From contig NC_015681.1 of assembly GCF_000217795.1 (NCBI RefSeq), positions 1,045,244 to 1,109,243 of the forward strand: 64,000 nt of DNA. Direction: 5' to 3'. A program made the translations under genes and the position numbers. The notes under the pieces are model-generated. The model saw only the letters and a list, made by a program, of their open reading frames with translations. It was not told the DNA's origin and ran no database searches. Numbering within the stretch: the first letter of the stretch is position 1; each line of letters starts with the position of its first letter. Shown here piece after piece: positions 48,789 to 51,272 of the stretch. Source of the DNA: Thermodesulfatator indicus DSM 15286. GTDB taxonomy: Bacteria; Desulfobacterota; Thermodesulfobacteria; Thermodesulfobacteriales; Thermodesulfatatoraceae.

Positions 48789-50639
48789 CTATTTGGTCAC
48801 TAGCTGAGAAGCTTCTTTTTCAAGTTGCTGAATGCGAGAGAACATCTCTTTGACCTCTCTCATAACCTGGTCGATAATATCAGCGATTTGAGAAAATTCT
48901 TTTGAGGCATCAGAGACTTGAAAAGATATTTTATTTAATTCCTTTCTTATCTTTTCTCCATAAGGGACGATCTTTTGAACTTCTTGTTTGGAATCGTCGG
49001 CTAGCTTTTTGATCTCGTTGGCTACCACGGTGAATCCTCTACCAGCCTCGCCAGCCCGTACAGCCTCAATAGTAGCGTTTAGGGAGAGAAGATTTATTTG
49101 TTCGGCTATTTTATTTATGGCTGCAGCTATGGGGCCGAAATTTTCGGTTATCTTGGCATAGCTCTCTATTTCGGACACCAAGCCGTCAAACTCCTCTTTT
49201 TGCCTTTCCAGAAGTTCTCCAAGACGAGAGGCCATTTCCTGTATGGTAGCAATCTCTTGATTCATCTCATTTAAAGATTTAAAAATATATTCTGCAACAG
49301 ATTCGTTTTTGTTTTTCATTTCCATGACTTTAGTCAAAGTATTTTTGAGTTCGGCTTCATTGTAATGGAAGCAGTTTTCCGGTTTGTTGAGACCGTTGTA
49401 AATAGCAATCGCCATGTCCTGGCATTTGCCGTAACCACATGCCATACAATTGTATAAATCTTTTTCTGAATATTTGTGCATAGTTTCGTAAACTTTTTTG
49501 AGCTCTCGTTCTGATGGCATTTTTAACTCGTTATTTTCTTTAAGGTTTAAATAACTCCTGTCATAAAGTCCTTCTTTCCAGTATTTATTGACGACTTTTT
49601 CTATTTTTTTTGCCGAAACTTTGTTGCCGAACCTGGCTTTATAGCGCTCCTGCATTTCTTTTCGGCGTTTTTCAATATAAAATTCTACCTCGTCAGGGCT
49701 GGCGTGTTGGCGTAGGCTTCCCGGACCTCCGTTACAGCCCAATTCACAGTTCAAGCAATCTACAAGTAAAGGATTGAGGCCTTTGCGCACCAGTTCGGGA
49801 AGCTTTTTGAGATAGCTGTAAACCATGGTCACACCTTCGATTTTTCTTGTGCGCTCTTTGATGTCTGGTATCCATCTTTCGGCCGTACGCATAAGCCCAC
49901 CGGGAGACGAAAAGAGGACTGCTCTTTCCGCAGGAGGATTGTCAAAATCTACTTCAGGATACGAAGAAAGTTGAATATTTTTTTCTCTGAAATATTTGTC
50001 AATTGATTTGAAGGTTACATTATAATCTCCTAAACCTGTTTCATCAAATTCTCTCTTTTTTGCTAAACATGGTGAAATAACCGCTACTTTGAAATCTTTG
50101 TATTCAGGATAAAAATGTTTTATCATGATGATAGTGTGAAGCATAGGACTTTGAACAGGGATGAGATATTCCAGAAGCTCTGGCTGATAAATCTGCATAT
50201 AGGTGACGATAGCCGGACAGGGCTGAGCAATAATCATATTTGGTTGTTTCTTTTTTAGATATTCCACATAGCTTTTTACAGTGAGTTCGGCACCAAAGCT
50301 CACATCAAAAACAGCTTTTATCCCGATAGATTTTAGCCATCCGTTTAGGCGGAGATAATTGTGTGGGAAATTAGCAGCTACAGCCGGAGCCACAATAGCT
50401 ACCATGTTCGTCTTTTTTACGTCTTTCATGAACGCATCAAAATCATCTACCCATTGCCTGGCTCCGGTTTCACATACTTCAATACAGGCTCCACAGCCTA
50501 TACACATATTGTGGTTTATTTCAACTGCACTCTCCGAGGCTTTGTTACAAAACTTGACCGGACAGACAGCAATACATTTATGGCAATTATTGCACTTTTC
50601 TGCATCAACCTTAACTACAGGAGAAAGCTCTTTTTTCAT
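48789..50639 (-). CDS. [FeFe]-hydrogenase-like methyl-accepting sensor
   Basis: This soluble 616-residue sensor has two 4Fe-4S sites at Cys16/19/22/26 and Cys46/49/52/56. Its hydrogenase-like domain has the H-cluster cysteines Cys141 (AQPCPAI), Cys191 ([10 protein letters not shown]) and Cys298/Cys302 ([13 protein letters not shown]). An FeS domain follows near residue 405 ([13 protein letters not shown]), and a chemoreceptor hairpin core lies near 535 ([20 protein letters not shown]). There is no membrane helix. The canonical TSCCP motif is QPCP here, so the proton-transfer Cys is missing, as expected for a sensor rather than a turnover enzyme. It probably senses H2 or redox and signals to CheA. 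AGGAG precedes the ATG. Confidence 0.9.
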
Positions 50640-50653
50640 CTACTCCTCCCAAC

Positions 50654-50812
50654 TTAAAAAAATTTACAACTAGGGCCTGATTTACTTTTTCCTAAGAGGC
50701 TAAAACTCCAAGAGGCCAAAACTTTAAGATCATCCATAGGGGCAAGGCCAAAATCTGGATCCCTATTTTTGATAGCCTTGAGATGACGTGCCTTAATGGT
50801 ATCTAACTTCAT
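50654..50812 (-). CDS. Possible 52-residue protein upstream of the hydrogenase-like sensor
   Basis: An open frame starts at ATG 50812 (GGAAG site 7 bases before) and ends 14 bases before the sensor gene. The peptide begins MKLDTIKARHLKAIKNRDPD and is basic at the N-terminus. I recognise no family. The remaining gap 50813-51272 is AT-rich and holds a short direct repeat (TAAAGCCATCTCAGAG near 50945 and 51238) and a palindrome, with no convincing gene. Confidence 0.35.
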   Translation of the reverse strand: MKLDTIKARHLKAIKNRDPDFGLAPMDDLKVLASWSFSLLGKSKSGPSCKFF

Positions 50813-51183
50813 GTTATACTTCCATTTACTTGAACGTCTATCTTTTTTTCGGTAAAGAAAAAAAATACTTTAAGTTTTTCAGCAAAGAGAAAACACTCTT
50901 AAAAAAATTTCCCTAACTCCCTTTGCCGCTTCAATAAAAGCTCTCTTAAAGCCATCTCAGAGATAGCCCAAAATCTGGCCAGCCAAAACGTTGGTTTTGT
51001 TATAGAACACGGGATCCCCTAAGTCTAAAATTTGGCCACAAATAGTTTTATTTATTGTACTTCTTAGGACGTATTCCAGTCATATTTGTCATATTTTGGT
51101 TAAAAGATATTGAAATGAAGGAAGTTATCCAGTTTTTCTCTCAAAAAACGGGAATCTGCATCGCCAGCATCGAGGGGGCACGA

Positions 51184-51207: not shown

Positions 51208-51272
51208 AGGTCATACTAGGAGCATGAATGTGCAAGTAAAGCCATCTCAGAGCAAAGGAAGCGAGCTTACCG

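Follow-up and report, generated by a model that had tools for sequence, protein, structure and literature searches.

A predicted cytoplasmic chemoreceptor carrying a sensory-type [FeFe]-hydrogenase domain in Thermodesulfatator indicus

Introduction

HydDB lists an [FeFe]-hydrogenase group C2 as 'Chemotactic (putative)' (PMC5037454), a designation repeated elsewhere (PMC9431212), and proposes that H2 sensing is coupled to methyl-accepting chemotaxis proteins (MCPs), with no mechanism or test given. In the literature searched, H2-sensing chemoreceptors have been proposed, but no such protein has been demonstrated to direct cell movement; full-text searches, which probably missed bracketed spellings and subscription papers, returned no experimental paper on a fusion of a hydrogenase-type domain (H-domain) with an MCP. 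TamHydS from Thermoanaerobacter mathranii (group D/M2e) carries two N-terminal [4Fe-4S] clusters, an H-domain and a domain with the motif CX2CX4CX16C, and has no PAS domain (PMC8163306, PMC11803613). TmHydS from Thermotoga maritima (group C/M2f) has the same cluster modules and a PAS output (PMC10055695). Both have lost the proton-relay cysteine and retain slow H2 turnover (PMC10055695, PMC8163306). On the signalling side, soluble MCPs such as that of T. maritima (PDB 2ch7) contain an MCP hairpin with a conserved tip, and Aer-type redox receptors direct taxis by an internal redox signal.

Here we describe a gene of T. indicus DSM 15286 that encodes an H-domain and an MCP signalling core in one chain. 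The gene lies in a 64,000-nucleotide stretch of contig NC_015681.1 (positions 1,045,244 to 1,109,243) that was analysed as a whole and is referred to as the window. The product resembles group C2 by description and, because HydDB already names this group, the kind of protein is not new. Its cluster modules match those of TamHydS and TmHydS, and its hairpin and conserved tip match those of soluble MCPs; unlike soluble MCPs and Aer-type receptors, it has an H-domain as its sensor in place of a PAS-FAD or periplasmic domain, and lacks the EEQ-type adaptation site.

Results

The receptor gene occupies window positions 48789..50639 (minus strand, as for all window features given below except a direct repeat), starts with ATG, encodes 616 amino acids and is preceded by a ribosome-binding site GGGAGGAG at 50643..50650. 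Pfam matches above curated cut-offs to Fer4 (residues 39-61) and Fer4_7 (15-60) mark two ferredoxin-type [4Fe-4S] sites within residues 9-60 (50460..50615), and a further such match, to PF04060, marks a C-terminal FeS domain at residues 396-423 (49371..49454). Between them lies the H-domain (Fe_hyd_lg_C, PF02906; residues 78-306; 49722..50408; E 1e-34, 121 bits), and the chain ends in an MCP signalling coiled-coil hairpin (MCPsignal, PF00015; residues 478-611; 48807..49208; E 1e-25) that phmmer matches to T. maritima MCP 2ch7 (E 1.3e-17) and whose tip, the CheA/CheW contact region (residues 518-530; 49050..49088), is conserved. All eight ferredoxin-type cysteines (16, 19, 22 and 26; 46, 49, 52 and 56) are invariant in an alignment of 41 relatives, as are C398, C401, C406 and C423 of the C-terminal domain, which form the same CX2CX4CX16C motif as in TmHydS and TamHydS (PMC8163306). 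No membrane segment was found in the receptor, whose maximum KD19 is 1.32, whereas seven of the genome's other MCPs reach 2.37-3.14. An AlphaFold2 model (mean pLDDT 90.4) superposes over residues 4-366 on solved [FeFe]-hydrogenases with Z-scores of 30-39, including CbA5H (Z 39.4, 2.6 Å over 343 residues) and CpI (Z 35-36), in a structure search that covered residues 2-368 well. The gene stands alone, with no adjoining electron-transfer partner gene. Chance is excluded as the source of this domain architecture, and the modules named in the sequence-only reading, namely ferredoxin sites, four H-cluster cysteines, an extra FeS domain and a chemoreceptor core with no membrane anchor, are borne out by Pfam, alignment and KD19 values.

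To place the H-domain, residue equivalences to CpI were taken from alignment with the genome's own group A-type enzymes. All four H-cluster cysteines are present as predicted ligands: C141 in motif L1 (IAQPCPA, residues 134-148; 50196..50240), C191 in L2 (SPCLAKKRE, residues 185-199; 50043..50087), and C298 and C302 in L3 (residues 290-308; 49716..49772). K194 corresponds to CpI K358, the cyanide-binding lysine of the diiron site. At the positions of the CpI proton-relay cysteine C299 and of M353 and M497, the receptor has P140, S189 and L296, replacements that set it outside catalytic group A; its TIGR02512 score is 111 bits against a cut-off of 406. Under the HydS module definition used for membership (PMC8163306), its two [4Fe-4S] sites, H-domain, CX2CX4CX16C domain and lost relay cysteine are those of the sensory groups C/D, and the absence of any Pfam match to a PAS domain sets it apart from HydS group C (M2f). 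TamHydS shares serine and leucine at the two methionine positions (PMC8163306, PMC11803613) but has alanine rather than proline at C299 and no output domain where the receptor has its hairpin, whereas TmHydS has Gly/Ser at the methionine positions and also alanine at C299 (PMC10055695). All 79 of the relatives compared, which come from many phyla, share P140, S189, K194, L296 and the four H-cluster cysteines. The proton-transfer cysteine is indeed replaced by proline, as had been read from the letters, and the argument for a sensor rather than a catalyst is supported; its use of the proline as a sign of lost function is rejected, since a residue fixed in all 79 relatives and found at this position in ~10% of sensory HydDB sequences (PMC10055695) is a family trait.

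The host genome is a single contig of 2,322,224 bases (99.9% complete). Thermodesulfatator indicus oxidises H2, reduces sulfate and lives at hydrothermal vents. HydE, HydF and HydG, all above curated cut-offs, are encoded at 517-526 kb in a single cluster that also includes two group A-type hydrogenases. The third of the genome's three group A-type [FeFe]-hydrogenase genes (L019:7188-8810) encodes an N-terminal RR motif (KKISRRSFLE) and its product is possibly Tat-exported, and a truncated 227-aa B-type [FeFe]-hydrogenase fragment (L020:7748-8431) lies just before an apparent ribosomal RNA region. CheA, CheW and putative CheR, CheB and CheY, the last three named from sequence and not by family search, are encoded together at 367-374 kb. 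This is the only CheA/CheW pair, and the sole CheA (L018:8059-10761) has a C-terminal response-regulator receiver domain. Nine MCP genes, including that of the receptor, and two flagellin-family genes, with flagellin at 479 kb, complete the set. A genome devoid of maturases and of any chemotaxis genes, which the sequence-only reading had named as grounds against a sensor feeding chemotaxis, is not what we observe: HydE, HydF, HydG, CheA, CheW and flagellin are all present.

Among 395 genomes of the phylum, 40 encode a relative at E<=1e-30 and only seven encode one with an MCP tail; the other relatives carry a histidine kinase, PAS or sigma54-activator domain at their C-terminus. Scanning genome contigs yielded 80 loci at 49-62% identity in Spirochaetes, Bacteroidetes, Ignavibacteria, Planctomycetes, Acidobacteria, Verrucomicrobia, Deltaproteobacteria and other groups. 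MCPsignal occurs in 41 and PF04060 in 53 of the 61 C-termini scanned, and MCP is the commonest output of the family. Relatives adjoin hydG-hydE (L088) or hydE/hydF/hydG (L065), and others adjoin cheB/cheR (L081), cheB/cheW (L069) or cheA (L063, L086). Five members of the same H-domain family have long C-termini in proteins of 1077-1364 aa, at least some of histidine-kinase or hybrid-kinase type (L065:5998-9231, L071, L073, L093, L138); that of L065 sits between hydE/hydF and hydG.

Phylogenetic analysis separates the family from kinase- and sigma54-type relatives and from group A (support 98/94 and 100/100). The receptor groups with a Spirochaetales MAG (support 92/68) in a tree where long branches are flagged and its own position inside the family is poorly resolved, and we name no donor. 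Its H-domain is placed with those of sensor type and away from the lysine-lacking sigma54-type relatives, in a tree that included no Narf sequence. Because it keeps the cyanide-binding lysine and takes this placement, the H-domain does not look Narf-like, a possibility that the sequence-only reading had raised against its own interpretation; HydE, HydF and HydG are also present in the genome. Because the three same-genus genomes examined lack the gene, we discarded vertical descent in the genus as the simplest explanation; ubiD has different neighbours in those genomes.

HydF is encoded in 7/7 phylum genomes with the MCP fusion versus 46/388 others (Fisher 5e-7, without correction for kinship), and genomes bearing the family encode HydF in 18 of 20 cases and CheW in 20 of 20. 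Across 30 H-domain sensors, those with the K194 lysine are found 14 times in genomes with HydF and 3 times in genomes without, and those missing it 2 and 11 times (Fisher 6e-4, on non-independent counts with five genomes from one family). This test separates relatives likely to have a diiron site from those likely to be without one. In seven sigma54-activator proteins (L047, L049, L053-L056, L059), all from genomes without HydF, the H-domain keeps its cysteines but has A/G where the cyanide-binding lysine would stand. Such proteins are probably cluster sensors that have no diiron site.

The signalling part departs from the other chemoreceptors of the genome. After the hairpin glutamate the receptor has 91 residues versus exactly 139 in six other MCPs, a C-arm 48 residues (~7 heptads) shorter than those of the genome's uniform MCPs; a seventh other MCP has extra domains behind its hairpin. 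All seven of these MCPs have an EEQ-type adaptation motif, located at +72 relative to the tip, which the receptor lacks. A C-arm methylation site is usual, though not universal, in MCPs. Because the adaptation segment of the other MCPs is missing, the receptor likely signals without classical CheR/CheB methylation, and because its C-arm is shorter, joint arrays with the other MCPs are uncertain.

Upstream of the receptor gene, a decayed MCP fragment with a sigma28-like promoter spans 50657-50872. Within it, a 52-codon ORF (50657..50812), identified by DNA identity as the remnant of a PilJ/HAMP-type MCP gene, joins codons 1-9 to sequence from farther along the same domain. The promoter region and first nine codons match the MCP gene at 2247.9 kb with 87% identity over 128 nt, and the part from farther along matches at 2247.6 kb with 93% identity over 72 nt; the intact counterpart at 2247.6-2248.0 kb is the only other site in the genome with such DNA. 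The sigma28-like motility promoter TAAAGTATTTTTTTTCTTTACCGAAAA (50846..50872), found by pattern 206 nt before the ATG and inside the decayed fragment, aligns with comparable sites ahead of three paralogous MCP genes, and the pattern also occurs 33-61 nt before flagellin and motA-like genes (the latter named from sequence) and just before an MCP gene. Genome-wide, the pattern is not enriched (27 sites versus 37 for the reversed control); we rejected the overall count as evidence and rely only on where the pattern stands relative to motility genes. Farther upstream, between the receptor gene and folC, lies a perfect 16-nt direct repeat (50947-50962 and 51237-51252, copies 290 nt apart), which may be the trace of an insertion or excision. 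On our best reading of this region, a decayed chemoreceptor locus received the acquired receptor gene, which may now be expressed from the promoter of that locus.

Discussion

Together, these data point to a cytoplasmic chemoreceptor that would read H2 or the H2-linked redox state through an H-cluster and signal without classical methylation, a reading to which we assign a probability of about 0.7. In the mechanism we propose, HydE, HydF and HydG would put an H-cluster into the H-domain, where H2 would react slowly under HydS-like tuning by S189, L296 and the lack of a relay cysteine. The altered H-domain and ferredoxin-type clusters would then move the C-terminal FeS domain, which would lead by helices into the MCP coiled coil, and the hairpin tip would act on the cell's single CheA/CheW pair and through it on the flagellar motor. 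Cofactor loading, H2 as the stimulus, the direction of the response and array membership are points that we infer. Electron relay to the receptor's C-terminal cluster is unlikely by analogy, because the corresponding cluster of TamHydS is not reduced by H2 (PMC13104023).

One alternative is a general redox or energy sensor: its clusters would report the redox state of ferredoxin or NAD(P)H, or O2 by cluster loss, and its H-domain would have a [4Fe-4S] cluster but no diiron site. Redox-driven taxis receptors such as Aer are known. Relatives of the sigma54 type and some of the kinase type, with a full set of H-domain cysteines, occur in HydF-less genomes, which makes the existence of cluster-only sensors with this fold probable. 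The receptor, however, keeps K194, which those HydF-less relatives lack, and with HydF in all seven MCP-fusion genomes of the phylum sample and hydE/F/G among the neighbours of relatives we regard such a general sensor as unlikely. Another alternative is a catalytic hydrogenase of low activity, with an MCP tail that has drifted or serves only to position the protein at chemoreceptor arrays. We consider this very improbable, even though TmHydS and TamHydS turn over H2 with the same cysteine missing (PMC10055695, PMC8163306), given that the genome already has three group A-type genes, that the hairpin tip is conserved, that MCP is the commonest family output and that no electron-transfer partner gene adjoins the receptor.

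The patchy distribution of the gene, its absence from sister species and a coiled coil that is shorter than, and differs in class from, those of the other MCPs would also suit a protein that signals to CheA or some other target for a purpose unrelated to motility, or a gene that was acquired recently and is little used. Either is quite unlikely in a receptor with an intact frame, conserved ligands and a motility-type promoter region upstream, in a genome with only one CheA/CheW pair. The preferred reading of an H-cluster-based chemoreceptor has a stronger form, in which the protein is a true hydrogen-taxis receptor without methylation-based adaptation, its gene was transferred, and it took over the sigma28 promoter of the decayed chemoreceptor gene; this form is tentative, and we place it somewhat below even odds.

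Compared with the HydDB entry, this analysis adds the lysine/maturase test, the linkage of relatives to hyd and che genes, the lost adaptation segment, and the sigma28-like promoter and decayed chemoreceptor fragment upstream. In the literature searched, putative sensory [FeFe]-hydrogenases have roles that are proposed and unproven, and the best-studied ones have no known output. The fused MCP of the receptor therefore offers a measurable output in CheA activity and swimming, and with a complete genome and one CheA/CheW pair its effects should be readable. If the hydrogen-taxis form is true, H2 sensing would be part of the motility regulon of T. indicus.
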